64,000 nt of DNA. Origin: a virus. The notes below the pieces were generated by a model. The model was given only the letters and a program-made list of their open reading frames with translations, made no database searches and was not told the DNA's origin. The first letter of the stretch is position 1; each line of letters begins with the position of its first letter. Made by a program: the position numbers and the translations under genes. The DNA is taken from IMG/VR virus record IMGVR_UViG_3300049482_000116, positions 1 through 64,000 of that record. The stretch is one strand, 5' to 3'. This document shows, piece by piece, positions 1,184 to 63,495 of this stretch.

Positions 1184-1516
1184 ATGAAAACTGTCAACAA
1201 CCCCTCTACCCTTCAGATGCGCCGCGCCAAACAACAATGGCTTTTCAACTATATGCAACATCTTATAGATGTTGGCGCATATACTGGCAAATACGTAAAA
1301 CTTCCCGGCGAAGATCCCATAGCTCACTGCTTGATAACAAGACCGGTTGACCTCACTAATAACAGTGCATACTACGGCGAAGGTTGGATATCACCCGAGC
1401 ACCGGGAACTGCTGTACGTGCTGCACCGCTTGCTAAGGCCCAGCGATTACCCGTTGAGACCTACGGTAGATGAAGAAGATGAAGGCGCACCAACCTTCAC
1501 ACCGTGGTTTACGTAG
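1184..1516 (+). CDS. Small acidic-tailed protein with two LxxLL-like segments, 110 aa
   Basis: ATG 1184 is preferred over the in-frame TTG at 1160, which lies inside the promoter element. The product starts MKTVNNPSTLQMRR. Two segments resemble the shared helix: LFNYMQHLID near residues 20-30 and LLYVLHRLLR in the second half. The C-terminus is an acidic, proline-containing linker-like tail (VDEEDEGAPT). The gene ends at TAG, and the next gene's ATG follows immediately in the same frame, so reading through one amber codon would fuse the two. Function unknown. Confidence 0.55.
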   Translation: MKTVNNPSTLQMRRAKQQWLFNYMQHLIDVGAYTGKYVKLPGEDPIAHCLITRPVDLTNNSAYYGEGWISPEHRELLYVLHRLLRPSDYPLRPTVDEEDEGAPTFTPWFT

Positions 1517-7788: not shown

Positions 7789-8419
7789 TATCTATTTTGA
7801 ACTTGATAGTTTAAAATACATTCTTGAAAACAGGGGCATCGAACCAGACGCGGTTACGATGATCCTACAAAAAGCTAGCGCAGACATAGATCGTGCCATG
7901 GCTAGTCACACTGAAGCAGCTATGCAGCTTGCCATCGAAGATGGAGTACAGAAGCGATCAGCTGAATTTATCAATGAACTTAAGCTTAATCAAATATCGA
8001 TGCAGCTTACAACGGACTCTGGAAATATGGACTTCTCTGAACCCCCATTCCCTATGCTTCCGCGACTGCTACAGGGCGCTAAGCCCATAAAAGATGGTTC
8101 TGGGGTCTACAAAGTCATTCCTGTAGGTGAATCTTCTAGGAATAGACCTAGGGTGTCTAGCAATATATATGATGCCTGGAAACAGGTCAATGCTGAGAGA
8201 ATGGAAGCCTCAAGAGCTCAGCGCGAGCGAGTAACCCCTAAAAACTCTAAGGCTAAGTTTAGAACGGCTACAAGTAAACAGAATGCTAATACACAGTGGG
8301 TTCAACCAGCTAAAGATAAAGACTTCACAGATACTGTCCAGAGTATAAATAAAGAACTTAGTAGTTCTTTAGAAGATATTGTTCGCAACATTATAAGAGA
8401 TTATGAAGAAAACTTTTAA
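7781..8419 (+). CDS. Putative head/tail completion protein, 212 aa
   Basis: The start overlaps the previous stop by 8 nt. The product begins MANIYFELDSLKYI. It has a helical N-terminus, a central phrase with PMLPRLLQGAKPI and YKVIPVG, and a charged Lys/Arg/Gln-rich C-terminal part. This layout and the position between the connector and sheath suggest a neck or tail-completion protein. I cannot assign it to a named family. An HNH gene begins inside its last codons. Confidence 0.5.
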   Translation: MANIYFELDSLKYILENRGIEPDAVTMILQKASADIDRAMASHTEAAMQLAIEDGVQKRSAEFINELKLNQISMQLTTDSGNMDFSEPPFPMLPRLLQGAKPIKDGSGVYKVIPVGESSRNRPRVSSNIYDAWKQVNAERMEASRAQRERVTPKNSKAKFRTATSKQNANTQWVQPAKDKDFTDTVQSINKELSSSLEDIVRNIIRDYEENF

Positions 8420-8909
8420 AACACATAATAAGAAATGTGAAGTTTGTTTAGTAGACTTTATTGCTCAGAAGTCTACTACCCGCTTTTGTTCTCCAAAGTG
8501 TAACAACCTAGTCCTATATCAAAATAGAGATGTAGAGGCATATAATTTAAGAAAACGCTCTAAGTCTGTAGCTAAACAAAGAAAAGAACGTTATCATAAT
8601 GATTTAGATTTTAGACTGGCTAACATTTTAAGAGCTAGATTGACGAATGCTATTAAGTATAACTTTAAGTCTGGCTCTGCCGTAGCCAATCTAGGTTGCT
8701 CTATTAAAGAGTTAAAGCTTTATTTGGAGTCTAAATTTGAACCTTGGATGAGCTGGGAAAATCATGGACGATATGGATGGCACATAGATCATATTGAACC
8801 ATTAACTTCTTTTGATCTATCTAACTCAGAAGATTTAAAGAAGGCTTGTCATTTTACAAATCTTCAGCCACTGCAATGGCGTAAAAATATAATCAAGGGC
8901 GGGTACTAA
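8403..8909 (+). CDS. Free-standing HNH endonuclease, 168 aa
   Basis: The N-terminus has a zinc-finger-like set C13-x2-C...C-x3-C (KCEVC, FCSPKC). The C-terminus carries the HNH core WHIDHIEPL...NLQPLQWRKNIIKGG, typical of phage homing endonucleases. The gene starts 17 nt inside the end of the preceding structural gene and stops just before the next, so it is inserted in an operon without disrupting either. It is expected to nick or cut homologous DNA lacking it and so spread to related phages. It is AT-rich compared with its neighbours. Confidence 0.85.
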   Translation: MKKTFKTHNKKCEVCLVDFIAQKSTTRFCSPKCNNLVLYQNRDVEAYNLRKRSKSVAKQRKERYHNDLDFRLANILRARLTNAIKYNFKSGSAVANLGCSIKELKLYLESKFEPWMSWENHGRYGWHIDHIEPLTSFDLSNSEDLKKACHFTNLQPLQWRKNIIKGGY

Positions 8910-13294: not shown

Positions 13295-13792
13295 ATGGTT
13301 TGTTTAGTTTGTCAAGTAACAGAGTCGGTTAAATGGTATAAACAAGGAACTGAGTGCAGGTCTTGTTTTAATAAAACATATCTTAGAGCTAATAGAAAAA
13401 GAGTAATGCAACTAAGAAAAAATTGGTTAGTTAATCACCCTGAAAAAGATAAACAATATAAGAAGCACTTTGAAACTAACCATAGAAAGACATTTTTAGC
13501 CATAAGGCGAAATAAAGAGGCTAGACATAGGGCAGCAAAAATGAATGCTGTCCCTAAATGGCTCAATGACGAACAACTTCAGGCAATTAAGTCAATTTAT
13601 GCGGAATGCCCTGTAGGTTTTCACGTAGACCATATTATTCCATTAAAGAGCAAAGATGTATGTGGATTACATGTGCCCTGGAATCTAAGGGCTATACCAG
13701 CAGAAGATAACGTCCGAAAGTCTAACAAGTTCAACTCAGACTCTGATACTATTATTCTTAGATCAATATTAGTTGATCTAAAAAATAACTAG
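13295..13792 (+). CDS. Free-standing HNH endonuclease, 165 aa
   Basis: The N-terminal pairs CLVC and CRSC form a zinc-ribbon-like element. A basic helical middle follows. The C-terminal HNH core is VDHIIPLKSKDVCGLHVPWN followed by LRAIPAEDN and KSNKF. The family is phage-type HNH homing endonucleases. It lies between a terminator and the first tube gene and has its own promoter-like box, so it behaves as a self-contained insertion. Its sequence type differs from the HNH gene at 8403, indicating an independent arrival. Confidence 0.85.
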   Translation: MVCLVCQVTESVKWYKQGTECRSCFNKTYLRANRKRVMQLRKNWLVNHPEKDKQYKKHFETNHRKTFLAIRRNKEARHRAAKMNAVPKWLNDEQLQAIKSIYAECPVGFHVDHIIPLKSKDVCGLHVPWNLRAIPAEDNVRKSNKFNSDSDTIILRSILVDLKNN

Positions 13793-43220: not shown

Positions 43221-45962
43221 ATGGCAAATGAGATAAAATTTGGTAGTAAGGTAGTGTTTTTAGGTGGAACACCGATAACATTACCTTCGCAAGCTTCTGA
43301 TCCTGGTAGTGCAGTCAACGGAGACATGTACTATAACTCTACTTCAGACACCATAAGAGTATATCAAAGCGGTTCTTGGCAAAGTCTTGCAACAGGCGGA
43401 GCAGCTGCTAACACTACTTTGAGCAATCTTGGAACTACCGCTATTAACGCTGCTTTACTGCCAGCGTCTACAAACACAATAAACCTAGGTAATGGTAACC
43501 TTAAGTTTAACCAGATGTTTATCAATCAACTTCGCCGCGATTCTGGTGAAGGTGTTACAGGACGAGCGGTTTTAGACGTTCAAAACTTCATTGCATATAA
43601 TGGAACAGAAACGGCGATCTTTAAGTGGGATTCTTCTACTGTAGAGCTATCTACAATGACAGCTACTACTGTCCCCTATCTAGATGCTAACAAGCGCCTA
43701 CAATCTAGTACAGTAACTCCAACTGAACTTGGATATCTTTCTGGTGTTACTTCTGCACTTCAGACACAATTAGGTAACAAGGCTGCCGATAACGTGGTTA
43801 TCAAAAAAGATGGTTCTGTTGCGTATCTCGCGAACCAATCGATGGGCGGTTTTAAACTAACAAGTCTCGCAGCAGGTAGTGCCAACGGTGATTCAGTTAG
43901 ATATGAACAAGCTATTTTAGCTTCTGGCGTCAATGCATTTGCTGCCAACCAATCGATGGGTGGTTTTAAACTAACTAACCTTGCAGACGGTACTTTAGCA
44001 CAGGATGCAGTTTCTAAGACGCAGATGGAAACTGCTGATGGTCTCAAGGTTTCTAAGTCTGGCGATACAATGTCAGGCAACCTGGCAATGGGCGGAAACC
44101 TTGTCACTGGACTGGGTGCTCCTGTTGGTGCTAACGATGCTGTTCGCAAAGCATATGCTGATGCTATTTCCGCTGGTTCAGTTTGGCTTAACCCGATCAA
44201 TGATCCTGACCTTATCGATGACTCGCTAAGCACACCCCCTGGTTCACCAGTTGTAGGAGATACTTATATCGTAGCAGACACTGCTACAGGAGCTTGGGCA
44301 GGATTAGAAGGCTATGCTGTGTTCTGGAGCGGATCTGCCTGGGTTGATATCTTAGGTCGCGCTGTCATCGCCGGCGATCGTTTCGGCGTCAGCATGGAAA
44401 CTCCGACAGCTGCAGCTGGCGGATTAGCTACTAAGGAAAATAATATTGCTCAAATTGTGTCCCCAACTCCTGGAGCGATCACATACACATTTACTGCACC
44501 CATACTTGGACAAGCAGTGTTCGTATTTAATACTGCTTCCACTCACTCTGGACACCAGTATAACTACAACGGAACTTCTTGGGTTGAATTCGGTGGAGCA
44601 AGCGCAATCACCCCTGGCGTTGGTCTATCATTCTCCGGTAACGTATTAAATGTTAACCTTGGAGCAGGTATTGCTCAACTCCCTTCTGATGAAGTTGGTA
44701 TTGATGTCCATACTTCCGGTGGACTATTTACTACAGTCGACAACAGCACATCTAGTACTGTCACTGCAGCTCAACTAGCAGTTAAACTAGATGGTTCTAC
44801 ATTAAGTAAATCATCCTCAGGACTTAAAGTAGCTGCCCTTGGAATCACCAACTCAGAGATCAGTGCGTCTGCAGCTATTGTATATACTAAGTTAAATATC
44901 TCTAACAGCGTTGTAAATGCTGATATTGCTTCTGGAGCAAATATTGCATTAAATAAGTTAGCTACTGTAACTGCAAGTCGCGCGCTTGTTTCAGATGGAT
45001 CTGGATTCATATCAGCAGCTTCAGTTACAGCGACCGAGCTCTCGTATCTATCTGGTGCAACAAGTTCAATCCAGACTCAACTTGGAAACAAGGCTTCTAC
45101 TACCTTAGACAACTTAGGTACTACAGCAATCAACACTAATCTGATTCCAAGTGCTACCAACTCGCATGATCTAGGTACTACGTCTGTTCGTTGGAAGGAC
45201 TTATATTTAGCTGGAGCAATAACATCAGCTGGTGGAGCAAGTTTTGGCGCTGGAATCACTGCTACCGGAACAATCAGCTCTGGAGCCTATAACTTAACTG
45301 GTGATGCTCTTGAAGTTAGCGGTGGAGCAGTAAGAGTCAGCTCTTTTACGACTCCAATTACCGGTGTTGCTGCTGCCTCGTTATTCCCAGTAAGTCCAGC
45401 TGCTGTACCAGTGTCTATCTTTACACGAGACAACAGTACAAATGACGCGGTTGCTTCTGGTGACGCACTTATCGAAACAGGAGATAAGACTGACGGTACT
45501 GGTAACTCTGGTTCTATCAAGCTTCAAACCGGGTCTTCAGTAGGCGGAACAAGGGGATCAATCGAACTTGATGCACGCGCTATCGCTCTTCGCGGCACGG
45601 TACAAAGATCAGATACTGCTGGTGGATCTAGTTTAATCGAAGAACAATATATCCATGCAACTACCCTTGCGGCCTCTCAGACTAATGCTATTGTAACAGC
45701 ATTAAATTTTGCTCATGCTTCTTATGAAGGTGTAGAGATTACTTACAAGATCAAGGAAGCTACCACTAACGCAGTCCGTACTGGTAAACTAAGTATCGCC
45801 ACCAATGGGACCGACGTATCTATTGTTGACTCTTTTAATGAGACAGCTGATGTTGGGGTCACTTGGAGCGCAGTCGTCAATGGCGCTAATATCAACGTAA
45901 GGTACACCACTACTGCTAATACAAAAACTGCACGTATGGATATCAAGCGCTTTAAGGCTTAA
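43221..45962 (+). CDS. Tail fibre protein, 913 aa
   Basis: GGAG precedes ATG 43221. The N-terminus has the fibre signature SVNGDMYYNSTSDTIRVY-like (GDMYYNSTSDTIRVYQSGSW). Repeats YLSGVTSALQTQLGNKA and YLSGATSSIQTQLGNKA, and NQSMGGFKLTSLA and NQSMGGFKLTNLA, form the shaft. A segment WVDILGRAVIAGDRFG lies in the middle. The C-terminal module (VEITYKIKE to ARMDIKRFKA) is related to those at the end of the 34429 protein. It is a trimeric fibre by family resemblance. Confidence 0.7.
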   Translation: MANEIKFGSKVVFLGGTPITLPSQASDPGSAVNGDMYYNSTSDTIRVYQSGSWQSLATGGAAANTTLSNLGTTAINAALLPASTNTINLGNGNLKFNQMFINQLRRDSGEGVTGRAVLDVQNFIAYNGTETAIFKWDSSTVELSTMTATTVPYLDANKRLQSSTVTPTELGYLSGVTSALQTQLGNKAADNVVIKKDGSVAYLANQSMGGFKLTSLAAGSANGDSVRYEQAILASGVNAFAANQSMGGFKLTNLADGTLAQDAVSKTQMETADGLKVSKSGDTMSGNLAMGGNLVTGLGAPVGANDAVRKAYADAISAGSVWLNPINDPDLIDDSLSTPPGSPVVGDTYIVADTATGAWAGLEGYAVFWSGSAWVDILGRAVIAGDRFGVSMETPTAAAGGLATKENNIAQIVSPTPGAITYTFTAPILGQAVFVFNTASTHSGHQYNYNGTSWVEFGGASAITPGVGLSFSGNVLNVNLGAGIAQLPSDEVGIDVHTSGGLFTTVDNSTSSTVTAAQLAVKLDGSTLSKSSSGLKVAALGITNSEISASAAIVYTKLNISNSVVNADIASGANIALNKLATVTASRALVSDGSGFISAASVTATELSYLSGATSSIQTQLGNKASTTLDNLGTTAINTNLIPSATNSHDLGTTSVRWKDLYLAGAITSAGGASFGAGITATGTISSGAYNLTGDALEVSGGAVRVSSFTTPITGVAAASLFPVSPAAVPVSIFTRDNSTNDAVASGDALIETGDKTDGTGNSGSIKLQTGSSVGGTRGSIELDARAIALRGTVQRSDTAGGSSLIEEQYIHATTLAASQTNAIVTALNFAHASYEGVEITYKIKEATTNAVRTGKLSIATNGTDVSIVDSFNETADVGVTWSAVVNGANINVRYTTTANTKTARMDIKRFKA

Positions 45963-59388: not shown

Positions 59389-60780
59389 ATGCTTCCACAC
59401 GCTCTAGTTAGTAATGACGCAATTACAATAACGGATCCTAGTCCTAGTATTGTTACGTGGGCTAATAAGAACTTAAGTTACACAGATAAATCTAAAGCTT
59501 ACCAGTTACGCCGCATGTCTAAGAATGTATATCTTAGAAGTTCGCCTATTTATGCTAAACTTCAGGCCGAATCTAAGGGACAATTGCACAGTTTGGTAGA
59601 TGATAAGCTCATCATTCCTAGTACATTCTTTAATGATATCAAAGATGAACTTGCTAAGTTTAGAATAACTGATTTAAGGAGCGAAACGGGTAAGAAGATT
59701 GTTGTTCCTTGGGTTAAAAAGCCCTTTGATCTTCGTCCATATCAAGAAGAAGCAGTAGATCTGATGATGGCCAACTATCGTGGACTAATTAATCTTGCAA
59801 CTGGACTAGGTAAGACACTTCTTGCTACACACCTGGTCCAGAGATACAAACGGCGTACACTTATAGTATGCCCATCTGAATCTGTAGCTAAACAGTTTTA
59901 CAAACAGTTTGTAGATTGCTTTGGACAAAATAAGGTAGGTTTCTATGGCGGAGGCAAAAAGAAGATTAGTGACATTACAGTTGGTATCGCTGCTTCTATC
60001 ACTAAAAATATTGGAGAGTTCAAGGATGCCGAACTCGGTCTCATTATATTTGATGAAACACATCACACCCCCGCTACCACGTTCTTTGATATCTCGAAAG
60101 GTCTGGCGTCGGTTGGCAAGATTTTTGGACTCACAGCTACAGACTATCGATCTGACGGAAAAGATGTGATGATCACTGGCGGATGTGGGCATGTCCTTAT
60201 TAGACGTGACATCAAGTGGGGTGTAGAGAACGGATACCTTGCAGAACCAATCTTTATCGTCCGTAAAGTTCATACGACTGGTAAAGATCACAAAGATGAT
60301 AAGTTAAAATCTTATAAGGCACACGTATTAAATGAACCACTAATGCTTCAGCAGATTGAGCAAGATGCAGCAAAGATGATGGCAGCAGGTAAATCTGTTC
60401 TTATCCTTGTTGATGAGGTTGCTCATGGAAAGATGCTCAGTGAAAATCTTAATATCCCGTTTGCTACCGGAATAGATGCAAAATCTCAAGAATATGTAGA
60501 TCAGCTAAATGCTGGAAAAGTTAAGGGGTTAGTAGGTACCGATGGAAAAATCGGAGAGGGTTCTGATACGCAGAACGTAGATGTTTTGATTCTAGCTAAT
60601 TTCGTAGCATCTAAGGGGCCAGTTATTCAGGCAATAGGTCGAGGTCTACGGAAACAGGGCAGTAAAACGCACTGTTTGATTCTTGACTATATTCCACTAG
60701 GTTCAACTATGTTAAGTCGCCATGGAAACAACAGAGTTGAAATGTATAAAGAAATTACTGAAAAAGTGAGGGTTTTATGA
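59389..60780 (+). CDS. SF2 DNA/RNA helicase, UvsW-like, 463 aa
   Basis: ATG 59389 is preferred over an upstream GTG, because it lies 7 nt after the GTATAAT box. Helicase motifs are present in order: Q-like region FDLRPYQEEAV, Walker A ATGLGKT (137-143), DETH box (222-225), motif III GLTAT (247-251), and motif VI QAIGRGLRKQ near the C-terminus. In T4-like phages UvsW unwinds R-loops and branched DNA and switches the replication mode; a similar role is likely. It overlaps the next gene by 4 nt. Confidence 0.8.
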   Translation: MLPHALVSNDAITITDPSPSIVTWANKNLSYTDKSKAYQLRRMSKNVYLRSSPIYAKLQAESKGQLHSLVDDKLIIPSTFFNDIKDELAKFRITDLRSETGKKIVVPWVKKPFDLRPYQEEAVDLMMANYRGLINLATGLGKTLLATHLVQRYKRRTLIVCPSESVAKQFYKQFVDCFGQNKVGFYGGGKKKISDITVGIAASITKNIGEFKDAELGLIIFDETHHTPATTFFDISKGLASVGKIFGLTATDYRSDGKDVMITGGCGHVLIRRDIKWGVENGYLAEPIFIVRKVHTTGKDHKDDKLKSYKAHVLNEPLMLQQIEQDAAKMMAAGKSVLILVDEVAHGKMLSENLNIPFATGIDAKSQEYVDQLNAGKVKGLVGTDGKIGEGSDTQNVDVLILANFVASKGPVIQAIGRGLRKQGSKTHCLILDYIPLGSTMLSRHGNNRVEMYKEITEKVRVL

Positions 60781-61001
60781 ACTATATTAAGTCAAGAGAT
60801 GAAGTCTTAAAAGAAGTTAAAGATAGAGTCTATTTAACAATCAGCTACAACATGACTAACGTACATAATCAATCTATGTCTAATATAGGTTACACTATTC
60901 AAAATGCTATCGCAGATGGCATTACTGAAGGTATCAAGGTCTTAATGGAAAATACTTATACAGATCAACAGTTTGAACAGGATATTAAGCTTAGAACCTA
61001 G
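60777..61001 (+). CDS. Small helical hypothetical protein, 74 aa
   Basis: ATG 60777 overlaps the helicase stop (ATGA), so it is translationally coupled. The product begins MNYIKSRDEVLKEVK and is probably all-helical, with Asn-rich turns. It ends at TAG. The lysozyme ATG lies 12 nt further in the same frame, separated by two TAG codons only. Function unknown. Confidence 0.6.
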   Translation: MNYIKSRDEVLKEVKDRVYLTISYNMTNVHNQSMSNIGYTIQNAIADGITEGIKVLMENTYTDQQFEQDIKLRT

Positions 61002-61013
61002 TATAATTAGGTT
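60995..61013 (+). promoter_or_regulatory. Lysozyme promoter box inside an inverted repeat
   Basis: AACCTA-GTATAAT-TAGGTT spans 60995-61013. The -10 box forms the loop of a 6-bp dyad, and the ATG follows immediately. The arrangement fits an operator overlapping the promoter and a leaderless lysozyme message. Confidence 0.5.
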
Positions 61014-61550
61014 ATGGGCAGAAAAATCAGCAAGAACGGATTAGAGCTAATTAAGGGTTTTGAAGGTTTATATTTAACAGCCTATCTAGACATAGTAGGT
61101 GTACCAACCATAGGTTTTGGTTGTACTGAAGGTGTCACTAAAGAAGATGTGGCTAATAAACGCACTATCACTGAGCAAGAAGCTATTGATATGATGATGA
61201 AAGAGTTAGATCGCTTCGAGAAGGGCGTTACTAAATACGTTACCATCCCGATCAACCAGAATCAGTTCGATGCGCTTGTTTCATTCAGTTATAACGTAGG
61301 CCTTGGAGCTCTTCAGAAATCAACCCTATTGAAGATCCTGAATGCAGGGGATATATCTGGAGCAGCAGAGCAGTTTCTTCGTTGGAATAAAGCCGGTGGA
61401 GTTGAAGTTAAGGGGCTTACTCGTAGACGTCAAGCAGAACGCTCACTATTTTTAAAATCTGAGACTCCTCCTGCCGGACTTCTTCCAGATGGCCCCAGCG
61501 AAGAAGAAATAAATAAAAAATTAGCTGATATTGAGAAAGATTTGAAGTAG
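61014..61550 (+). CDS. Endolysin, T4-type lysozyme (GH24), 178 aa
   Basis: This N-acetylmuramidase cleaves host peptidoglycan at lysis. The catalytic residues Glu17 (KGFEGL), Asp26 (AYLDIVG) and Thr32 (PTIGFG) have the same spacing as Glu11, Asp20 and Thr26 of T4 lysozyme. FDALVSFSYNVG and GLTRRRQAE are the conserved later motifs. A 30-residue acidic helical extension follows the domain. There is no signal peptide, so a holin is expected elsewhere. The start is the ATG straight after the promoter dyad. Confidence 0.9.
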   Translation: MGRKISKNGLELIKGFEGLYLTAYLDIVGVPTIGFGCTEGVTKEDVANKRTITEQEAIDMMMKELDRFEKGVTKYVTIPINQNQFDALVSFSYNVGLGALQKSTLLKILNAGDISGAAEQFLRWNKAGGVEVKGLTRRRQAERSLFLKSETPPAGLLPDGPSEEEINKKLADIEKDLK

Positions 61551-61693: not shown

Positions 61694-62137
61694 ATGAAAA
61701 ATCAAATAAATCTATTAAAACAAGAGCTCAAGTCTCTTGCTAAAGAAATAACTACCAACCGAAAACTATATAAACAAGCTCAAAGAGAGGGTAAATCTCT
61801 TTGGAATATCCGCGTTCCTTCTTATGAATTCCGATATAAACATATCGTTTATTGTATGCTTAGAGGTCGAACCATTGAGCAGATTGAACGAAGTCATAAA
61901 CCGGGCAAAGAGCCTAACATGCCATATATCGAAATGATGATCAAGAAGGTGCAAGATGAAGCTTTACGTAGTAGTGAGATCGGATCTGTCGAAATCCCAA
62001 CAAGCAGTTCAAGCGGGTCACGCTCTTGCGGAGCTCCTGCTGAAGCAACAACCGCGAAAGTGGAAGAATGGGACACTGGTTTACTTAAAGGTAAGGGATT
62101 TAGAATCTTTGGAGCTTTTAAAAGTCTCTTTAGATAA
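61694..62137 (+). CDS. Hypothetical phage protein, 147 aa, C-terminus overprinted on next gene
   Basis: TAGGAG precedes ATG 61694. The first 90 residues form a convincing domain: a coiled N-terminal helix (LLKQELKSLAKEI), then YEFRYKHIVYCMLRGRT and EQIERSHKPG. The last 60 residues are Ser/Ala-rich and are read from DNA encoding the Pth2-like gene in another frame. This suggests a frameshift changed its original end. I recall relatives in other phages but no function. Confidence 0.6.
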   Translation: MKNQINLLKQELKSLAKEITTNRKLYKQAQREGKSLWNIRVPSYEFRYKHIVYCMLRGRTIEQIERSHKPGKEPNMPYIEMMIKKVQDEALRSSEIGSVEIPTSSSSGSRSCGAPAEATTAKVEEWDTGLLKGKGFRIFGAFKSLFR

Positions 62138-62264
62138 GTATCAACAATATCCAGTACCATTTAAGGAGCCTGATATCGGAGATGAGATGACTGCCTTTGC
62201 ACTTTTTGAGTGCACAGATCATGCAACTGCTCAATCTCTTTTGGATAACCTTCCTTTGATGTAA
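61956..62264 (+). CDS. Pth2-like (peptidyl-tRNA hydrolase type II fold) protein, 102 aa
   Basis: ATG 61956 follows AAGGTG. The product begins MKLYVVVRSDLSKSQQAVQA and continues GHALAELLL. The pattern of a first strand, an SDLS turn and an AxQAGHA helix is that of the Pth2 fold, whose bacterial members release peptides from tRNA. Pth2 is normally 110-120 residues, so this is a compact version. Activity is uncertain. It lies just before the tRNA gene, which may be meaningful. Confidence 0.55.
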   Translation: MKLYVVVRSDLSKSQQAVQAGHALAELLLKQQPRKWKNGTLVYLKVRDLESLELLKVSLDKYQQYPVPFKEPDIGDEMTAFALFECTDHATAQSLLDNLPLM

Positions 62265-62266
62265 AA

Positions 62267-62273
62267 GTATAAT
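62267..62273 (+). promoter_or_regulatory. GTATAAT box for tRNA gene
   Basis: GTATAAT ends exactly 6 nt before the first tRNA base. The tRNA could be transcribed without a 5' leader. Confidence 0.5.
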
Positions 62274-62279
62274 ATTGAT

Positions 62280-62353
62280 GCACCCGTAGCTCAGTGGCTG
62301 AGCAGGCGTCTCTAAAACGCTGGACGTGGGTTCGATCCCCACCGGGTGCGCCA
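62280..62353 (+). tRNA. tRNA with anticodon CUA (amber suppressor type)
   Basis: The 74-nt cloverleaf is complete. Acceptor GCACCCG/CGGGTGC; D-arm GCTC-loop-GAGC; anticodon stem GGCGT/ACGCT with loop CTCTAAA; short variable loop GGAC; T-arm GTGGG-TTCGATC-CCCAC; discriminator G and encoded CCA. In the anticodon loop U33 is followed by CUA, which reads UAG. A class I tRNA with G73 is compatible with, for example, glutamine identity, but the amino acid cannot be fixed from sequence. UAG-reading tRNAs are known from some phages with altered stop-codon use. Confidence 0.85.
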
Positions 62354-62360
62354 ATATTTT

Positions 62361-62702
62361 ATGCAAATCAATTCACAGTTATGTATATCAGGAAATTACA
62401 AGCGACAAAGATGCGTTCTTAGATTGTTAAGAAACATGTCAACTAAGTATCACCATATAGTGGTTCATTTTACATTTAAAGAGCACAGACAATCCATATC
62501 ACATGGTCTTATAGGTGATAAATTTACTGTCTTATTAGATAAGCTACCGATCGAGGCATTAGTTCATGCGGGCTCAATGACTTATTCATTTGACCAAAAA
62601 CAACTTTCTAAGTTAAAAGCAGAATCTGATTTACGCTTCTTATTAGATAAACTTCTTGCTAATCACCCTCATAGCTTACTATATAGGTATGAGTCTATAT
62701 GA
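62361..62702 (+). CDS. Hypothetical protein, 113 aa
   Basis: ATG 62361 lies 8 nt after the tRNA end and has no ribosome site. An in-frame ATG at residue 26 (MSTKYHHIVV) is an alternative start. The product contains VLRLLRNMST, weakly like the left-arm helix signature, then strands (HIVVHFTF) and a helical end (DLRFLLDKLLANHPHS). It overlaps the next gene by 14 nt. Function unknown. Confidence 0.5.
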   Translation: MQINSQLCISGNYKRQRCVLRLLRNMSTKYHHIVVHFTFKEHRQSISHGLIGDKFTVLLDKLPIEALVHAGSMTYSFDQKQLSKLKAESDLRFLLDKLLANHPHSLLYRYESI

Positions 62703-63495
62703 TGATTTTAAGAAATATCGCGATCAGTACGGCCTAAACGGTCTTTACACAGATGGAACCAACGGTGAGTCAACTCAAAATGGCGCTCTGTTTACATTAG
62801 AGTATCTGATCTGTCTGATAAATGATCCAAACACCTCTGATTCAGTTAAGCAAGCAGAAATAACTCGTTTGATATCTACATATGAAAGTCTAGAGACTTT
62901 TCCAGGAATATCATCAAGAGTTCCAGGTGGACAAGAATTTGACTCCATGGACAATACTGGAGCAATCTTTACCTTCTCCGGTCTGTTCGATAACGGAAAT
63001 TACTCAAAGCGTTCTTATATCCACGGATCTACTCAGCGAGCTGAAAGCATCGATCAAGGGCAGGGAGCAGATCTAAATAACAAGTATTATGTACTTGCTA
63101 AGTTAATGAGCGGTTGGAAAGCACCTAGATTCTTCTGGAATAACAACAACCCAAAGCAGTTCTGTTTCTTTGGTTGGCACGGTCGTTCGCCCGGTCATAT
63201 AGCATATCTTAAGATGACTGCTGGAAAATGGGTTGGACCACTTGGTCAACTCAGTATCTTAGTTGGGCAATTTCTTGGATGCTTTGCAGACAAAGGTAAT
63301 GCAGATGCTAGAAAATTGCCCTATATCAATTGGCAATACTTAAAGAAGCGTAATTTTATATGGAAGGGCTTCTACAAACTTTGGTGCCAAATTCTTATCA
63401 AGCAATACCCAAACGGAATGCAAGACGTCTACCGTATGTACTATGGTGACCCAAATCATCCTATGCGAACTTATCCAAAGACCTTTGAACCGTAA
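62689..63495 (+). CDS. Hypothetical conserved-looking protein, 268 aa
   Basis: ATG 62689 (MSLYDDFKKYRDQYG) follows AGG and is preferred over a TTG 33 nt upstream. The protein is rich in aromatic residues and Gly/Asn: NGALFTLEYLICLIND, DSMDNTGAIFTFSGLF, and FFWNNNNPKQFCFFGWHG. It has no signal peptide and no clear membrane helix. The regular, motif-dense sequence suggests a conserved enzyme or structural fold; similar proteins seem familiar from phages, but I cannot name a function. A hairpin follows 3 nt after the stop. Confidence 0.6.
   Translation: MSLYDDFKKYRDQYGLNGLYTDGTNGESTQNGALFTLEYLICLINDPNTSDSVKQAEITRLISTYESLETFPGISSRVPGGQEFDSMDNTGAIFTFSGLFDNGNYSKRSYIHGSTQRAESIDQGQGADLNNKYYVLAKLMSGWKAPRFFWNNNNPKQFCFFGWHGRSPGHIAYLKMTAGKWVGPLGQLSILVGQFLGCFADKGNADARKLPYINWQYLKKRNFIWKGFYKLWCQILIKQYPNGMQDVYRMYYGDPNHPMRTYPKTFEP

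Follow-up and report, generated by a model that had tools for sequence, protein, structure and literature searches.

The viral sequence analysed here, a 64,000-nucleotide stretch covering positions 1 to 64,000 of IMG/VR record IMGVR_UViG_3300049482_000116 (the window), encodes a transfer RNA (tRNA) with the anticodon CUA, the amber suppressor type (62280-62353, + strand). This is a genuine tRNA whose sequence and position are both conserved, and its UAG-reading loop is invariant. It follows genes for two small proteins, which we call ART and PTH2-like (PTH2L), and this ART-PTH2L-tRNA cassette is tightly linked, on one strand, across widely diverged phages. We consider it probable that the tRNA is functional in reading UAG and forms the end of a dedicated cassette, present in many standard-code phages, whose proteins help the tRNA. 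The linkage of a stop-reading tRNA with two small proteins is new here.

ARAGORN called a tRNA(CTA) at exactly 62280-62353, with the CCA end encoded, and Rfam model RF00005 matched positions 62280-62350 with 63.5 bits, compared to a gathering score of 29. The cloverleaf folds with an energy of -33.2 kcal/mol (z -2.6). Its layout, read off the sequence, comprises a 7-bp acceptor stem, U8-A9, a 4-bp D stem, a 5-bp T stem, a variable loop of only 4 nt, and G73. The anticodon stem, GGCGU/ACGCU, has 5 bp with a G27.U43 wobble as its top pair. The anticodon itself lies at 62312-62314 (position 33 of the ARAGORN call) in the loop C32 U33 C34 U35 A36 A37 A38, so that CUA occupies positions 34-36 after U33. 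In an alignment of 12 related CUA tRNAs, 94.8% of cells were paired in the cloverleaf and two-sided changes were found at 14 of the 21 pairs. None of 500 shuffles matched the observed covariation, and the cloverleaf is therefore no chance fold. While the stems vary among these relatives, TCTAAA of the anticodon loop does not, and the amber anticodon is what selection keeps in these tRNAs. The initial annotation, made from this sequence alone, had described a canonical cloverleaf with CUA at 34-36 of the loop CTCTAAA, and both statements hold. Its interpretation that such a tRNA can read UAG is also well supported, as judged from the conserved anticodon, the compensating stems, and A36-A37-A38; it missed the linked PTH2-like and ART genes, and neither of the two uses it proposed for the tRNA was supported, as described below.

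The tRNA is the only one in the record, a linear fragment of 68,141 bases. ARAGORN also placed a tRNA-Ile within a structural open reading frame (ORF), at 44313-44397; this call lacks Rfam support and is probably a false positive. A related virus record (G001, 108,664 bases) is syntenic with the window phage across most of the fragment, with protein identities of 60-75% (about 65% overall). Its single tRNA is also a CUA tRNA in the same place, with diverged stems. A plausible candidate origin of tRNA(CUA) is tRNA-Trp, by a change of the loop from CTCCAAA to CTCTAAA. The name tRNA-Pyl, under which ARAGORN reports it, is a mere label for the CTA anticodon. The hallmarks of tRNA-Pyl are a 6-bp anticodon stem, a 3-nt variable loop, and one base between the acceptor and D stems. 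The tRNA described here has a 5-bp anticodon stem, a 4-nt variable loop, and U8-A9 present, and we reject this identity on structure. A TIGR02367 search for a pyrrolysyl-tRNA synthetase gave 0 matches in the record, which is a fragment and whose host is not identified.

A pattern scan of viral contigs yielded at least 120 loci, and 109 of the loci analysed carry a CUA tRNA by ARAGORN; 106 loci with a CCA tRNA, from tRNA-rich phages, served as the control set. Using a local hidden Markov model (HMM), a PTH2-like gene was found in 37 of the 109 CUA loci versus 3 of the 106 CCA loci, on the same strand in 36 of the 37. The difference persisted once related loci were grouped (31/82 versus 3/78, p 5e-8). 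ART was present in 20 of the CUA loci and in none of the controls (14/82 versus 0/78 after grouping). When all neighbouring genes were clustered without bias, the PTH2-like family came out on top (18 groups versus 0), with another family, which we refer to as FHFNK, in second place. The window, in which ART (start 61694), PTH2L (61956), and the tRNA (62280) follow one another on the + strand, has the order that defines the cassette.

The linkage is also evident in the reverse direction. With PTH2-like proteins of the window type as the query, and without conditioning on tRNAs, 80 loci were kept, and 70 of these have a stop-reading tRNA within 5 kb (69 of them CUA). All 70 tRNAs are on the same strand as the PTH2-like gene, at a median distance of 173 nt, and the next commonest anticodon occurs in 12 loci. 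The complete order ART-PTH2L-tRNA is seen in 59 of the 80 loci, and when proteins were clustered at 70% identity 52 of 59 clusters had a stop-reading tRNA.

PTH2-like relatives also occur in named phages, among them Lak, mycobacteriophages, and Stenotrophomonas phages. Nine named phages were chosen by the protein alone, and in seven (Lak-A1, Lak-B4, LR756501, LR745208, LR756500, Myrna, and IkeLoa) a CUA or UUA tRNA lies within 2.5 kb of the PTH2-like gene; LR745206 and LR756502 have no CUA or UUA tRNA within that distance. In IkeLoa the PTH2-like gene 151 is followed by tRNA-Pyl(cta) as gene 152, and in Myrna the CTA tRNA is 154 nt away. The ochre anticodon UUA replaces CUA in Lak and LR745208; in Lak-B4 (L253) and Lak-A1 (L254) a tRNA of this ochre type is the sole one in the 20 kb that surround the PTH2-like gene. 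In the Stenotrophomonas phage Summit, an ART gene lies 6 nt upstream of the suppressor tRNA. In XacN1, which has two tandem CUA tRNAs, no PTH2-like gene lies closer to them than 8 kb.

Members of the FHFNK family (FHFNKKHLED..IPMW..STKETPDN.HTKGSIK; L262-L341) have a CUA tRNA within 5 kb in 68 of 80 loci. They are small proteins with a beta-rich model; Pfam and PHROGs gave no match for the members tested, and the family is not in the window. Two more families of small proteins show enrichment in the vicinity of CUA tRNAs (7 and 6 groups versus 0; L017 1056-1484 and L087 6872-7564, also L255, L256, and L258), and one of these two families is located directly upstream of the LR756501 CUA tRNAs. 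The tandem XacN1 tRNAs (AP018399 36047-36205; L250 7913-8071) have an identical body but differ in the acceptor stem and at the discriminator base, and look as though each were meant for a synthetase of its own.

The PTH2-like protein of the window (61956-62264, + strand, 102 amino acids) ends 15 nt before the tRNA. The linkage places it in the cassette, and its assignment rests on a Pfam PTH2 match just above threshold (PF01981, 23.1 bits versus a cut-off of 23), and on a profile match to archaeal PTH2 (2zv3, E 1e-8) that extends across the domain. The canonical active-site motifs are not kept. Alignments revealed that the phage family lacks both the GKGK loop and the DAGxTQ motif: the Lys is replaced by Q, T, or Y, the Asp by an invariant Glu, and the Thr position is lost. 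The residues of Sulfolobus Pth2 that correspond to the catalytic GKGK Lys and the DAGxTQ motif we take to be K18, D86, and T90. Since the loop and motif are not retained, peptidyl-tRNA hydrolase activity of the phage family is doubtful, and a tRNA-binding or altered function may be suggested for the protein instead. Cellular genomes, when scanned with a profile, yielded no PTH2-like relatives.

ART (61694-62137, + strand) was defined as an HMM family and modelled with AlphaFold. It is conserved over approximately residues 1-100 (to about 61993), and the remainder of the ORF shares its DNA with the PTH2-like gene, read in a different frame. The protein is basic, and its model is all helical, consisting of a long helical pair and two further helices (predicted local distance difference test score 87.8). 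Fold searches returned no significant PDB match for this model or for that of FHFNK; weak ART matches to the seryl-tRNA synthetase coiled-coil arm give a hint at most. In the window (61694-62264) ART and PTH2L are encoded by two genes that overlap; in G001 (61791-62366) and other relatives they form a single fused gene, and fusion occurs in total in 19 of 63 loci. Autoregulation through a TAG between the two genes was rejected, as 19 of the 63 are fused and an in-frame TAG occurs in only 1.

The genetic code of the window phage appears to be the standard one. All large genes read as open under it, as the initial annotation had stated for the structural ones, and reading TAG through increases ORF coverage by only 0.022 in both the window phage and G001. 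A codon model assigned 32 TAA, 7 TGA, and 6 TAG stops to the window phage, and 66, 17, and 5, respectively, to G001. The late structural genes mostly end in TAA, and TAG is nearly absent from them. No TAG faces a sense codon in aligned established orthologues of the window and its relatives. The absence of in-frame TAGs, the tiny gain in density, and the lack of TAG-versus-sense orthologues lead us to reject amber recoding (code 15). A PF00472 search for release factor 2 was empty for the record and for G001; either sequence may be a fragment, and some recoding phages lack a release factor 2 of their own. Few of the 109 CUA loci appear recoded, and given their number, CUA tRNAs are common in standard-code phages.

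The initial annotation had proposed that the tRNA acts on a few selected UAG codons, or on early genes late in infection. For the latter use, TAG stops number only 6 of 45 in the codon model and nothing ties them to timing. The former, in which chosen phage UAGs are read through to give extended or fused proteins, is the best of the alternatives to the cassette reading and is still unlikely. Its strongest case is gene X (60777-61001), which is separated from an in-frame endolysin gene (61014-61550) by TAG TAT AAT TAG (60999-61010, + strand). The frame stays open through the TAGs at 60999 and 61008, the same arrangement occurs in relatives L342 and L027, and the endolysin stop is itself TAG in the window and in L092. 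This was the only candidate to recur once further relatives were added. The fusion is not conserved, however, as the gene X stop is TGA or TAA, or the frame is different, in G001, L034, L092, and others. The TAGs may equally be stops flanking a TATAAT promoter element, and their abutting this element explains their recurrence. A second candidate, the TAG at 1514-1516 (+ strand) followed by an in-frame ATG, is all that separates ORFs 1160-1516 and 1517-1768, and the region has no homologue in G001 with which it could be compared. Among the aligned pairs of established orthologues, none continues across a TAG, and in XacN1 (PMC5852040) and Summit (PMC9022506), where suppressor tRNAs have been reported, the published searches for targets were also empty. 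A TAG at 69663 in G001 proved to be an ordinary stop that is TAA in the window, and nearby backup stops after TAG, apparent in two genomes, showed the reverse in a larger set.

If the host were the target, with UAG-ended host genes read through during takeover and the two proteins limiting harm to phage translation, this would explain why no phage targets turned up and why late structural genes hardly ever end in TAG. We regard this as improbable: TAA outnumbers TGA as well as TAG, so the stop bias is not specific to TAG here.

It is more improbable that the tRNA does not decode at all and instead serves ART and the PTH2-like protein as a scaffold or substrate, for example by donating an aminoacyl group off the ribosome, or as a decoy. 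The tight link to a PTH2 fold without its usual catalytic motifs would fit such a role, as would the variable position 73. Against it, the anticodon itself is conserved together with A36-A37-A38, UUA substitutes for CUA in Lak and LR745208, and the anticodon stems look tuned for decoding. The stem is shorter than 5 bp in 52% of CUA tRNAs versus 17% of sense tRNAs (p 8e-25), and an unpaired top pair of the anticodon stem has been linked to stronger stop-codon reading (PMC13092985). A weak top pair is common among CUA tRNAs, as in the 4-bp-stem tRNAs of that study, although the anticodon there stays CCA and here is cognate to UAG. In the window tRNA the top pair is the G.U wobble, so it follows the trend to weak stems just mildly.

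Least probable of all is that the CUA tRNA is a passive neighbour of the PTH2-like gene, whose role in phage translation islands would be a general one in ribosome rescue or counter-defence. In its favour, a jumbo-phage PTH2 has been proposed to rescue jammed ribosomes (PMC7824862), and rescue proteins with a release-factor (RF-1) domain were found in 7 of 33 cassette records versus 3 of 35 controls, a difference that is not significant. Against it, the link is specific to stop-reading tRNAs (69 CTA loci, 12 for the next anticodon), and PTH2-like genes are rare beside CCA tRNAs.

Several observations weigh against the reading of a dedicated UAG-reading cassette. TAG stops are scarcer in the general CUA set than in the CCA loci (log-odds adjusted for GC content -0.64, 95% interval -1.03 to -0.29) and likewise depleted in the FHFNK set, but in the PTH2-like set, which includes the window, the depletion is not significant (-0.21, -0.55 to 0.11). 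About one in eight PTH2-like loci has no stop-reading tRNA, and the seed proteins of the reverse scan were themselves taken from CUA-linked members. No conserved UAG target gene was found, and no extension after TAG is conserved among orthologues of the window and its relatives. The discriminator base varies (A in 117, G in 38, and T in 32 of about 190), so a single amino acid is not implied. Given that its model has no significant structural match, any role for ART is a guess.

On the dedicated-cassette reading, the tRNA would be charged during infection and let some ribosomes pass UAG. The PTH2-like protein, with the PTH2 fold kept, and ART might act on tRNA(CUA) or on ribosomes at UAG. The two proteins could tip the competition with release factor 1 or clear its side products, and so assist or restrain the tRNA. 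The outcome would be partial readthrough of UAG and not its reassignment. It could take place in phage or host messages, or serve as cover against CAG-to-TAG and TGG-to-TAG mutations. More tentatively, and with about as much doubt as confidence on our part, leaning to doubt, we suggest a widespread "stop-decoding cassette" in which a stop-reading tRNA has as dedicated partners a PTH2-like protein that is catalytically altered and a helical protein of a new kind (elsewhere also FHFNK), and which provides controllable UAG readthrough with the code unchanged. Such a cassette could be a stage preceding full reassignment as in Lak.

The window phage resembles XacN1 and Summit in combining a CUA tRNA and standard-code genes with no identifiable target, and Summit shares the ART homologue found here directly before its tRNA. 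Unlike the window, with its complete ART-PTH2L-tRNA set and no other tRNA, the reports on these two phages tie the tRNA to no neighbouring proteins. TAG-recoding phages (code 15: crAss-like phages and Lak; PMC11210395, PMC9523058) likewise carry a CUA tRNA, and Lak has the PTH2-like protein beside its UUA tRNA; the window genes differ in having no in-frame TAG and no gain in coding density on TAG readthrough. The PTH2-like family resembles archaeal and eukaryotic PTH2 in profile and departs from it in the GKGK loop and the DAGxTQ motif. No link between stop-reading phage tRNAs and PTH2 was found in the literature searched, which did not extend to preprints and most subscription papers.

The surroundings of the cassette are of the myovirus type, with a tail sheath, a DnaB-like helicase, a primase, a UvsW-like helicase, an endolysin, and a dUTPase, and a GroEL-like protein was read from the sequence farther right. 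Directly 3' of the cassette is a conserved gene (62656-63495, + strand; likely start at an ATG inside the ORF) that is 67% identical in G001 and served to find this relative. A TATAAT 6 nt upstream of the tRNA (62268-62273, + strand) is a possible -10 element; placement of such an element directly upstream of the tRNA is not enriched across the cassette family. Two endonuclease-VII/HNH-like genes (8403-8909 and 13295-13792) lie between structural genes and have G001 relatives located elsewhere, as expected for mobile homing endonucleases.

Suppressor tRNAs of standard-code phages have so far been reported as "purpose unknown", and the conserved cassette gives a first handle on that purpose. 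It makes the question testable gene by gene, and laboratory phages of Mycobacterium smegmatis carry the PTH2-like gene beside a CUA tRNA. The cassette may also reveal a protein that aids stop-codon suppression, which would be useful in genetic code expansion. The shared partner protein connects standard-code phages with the TAG-recoding megaphages.
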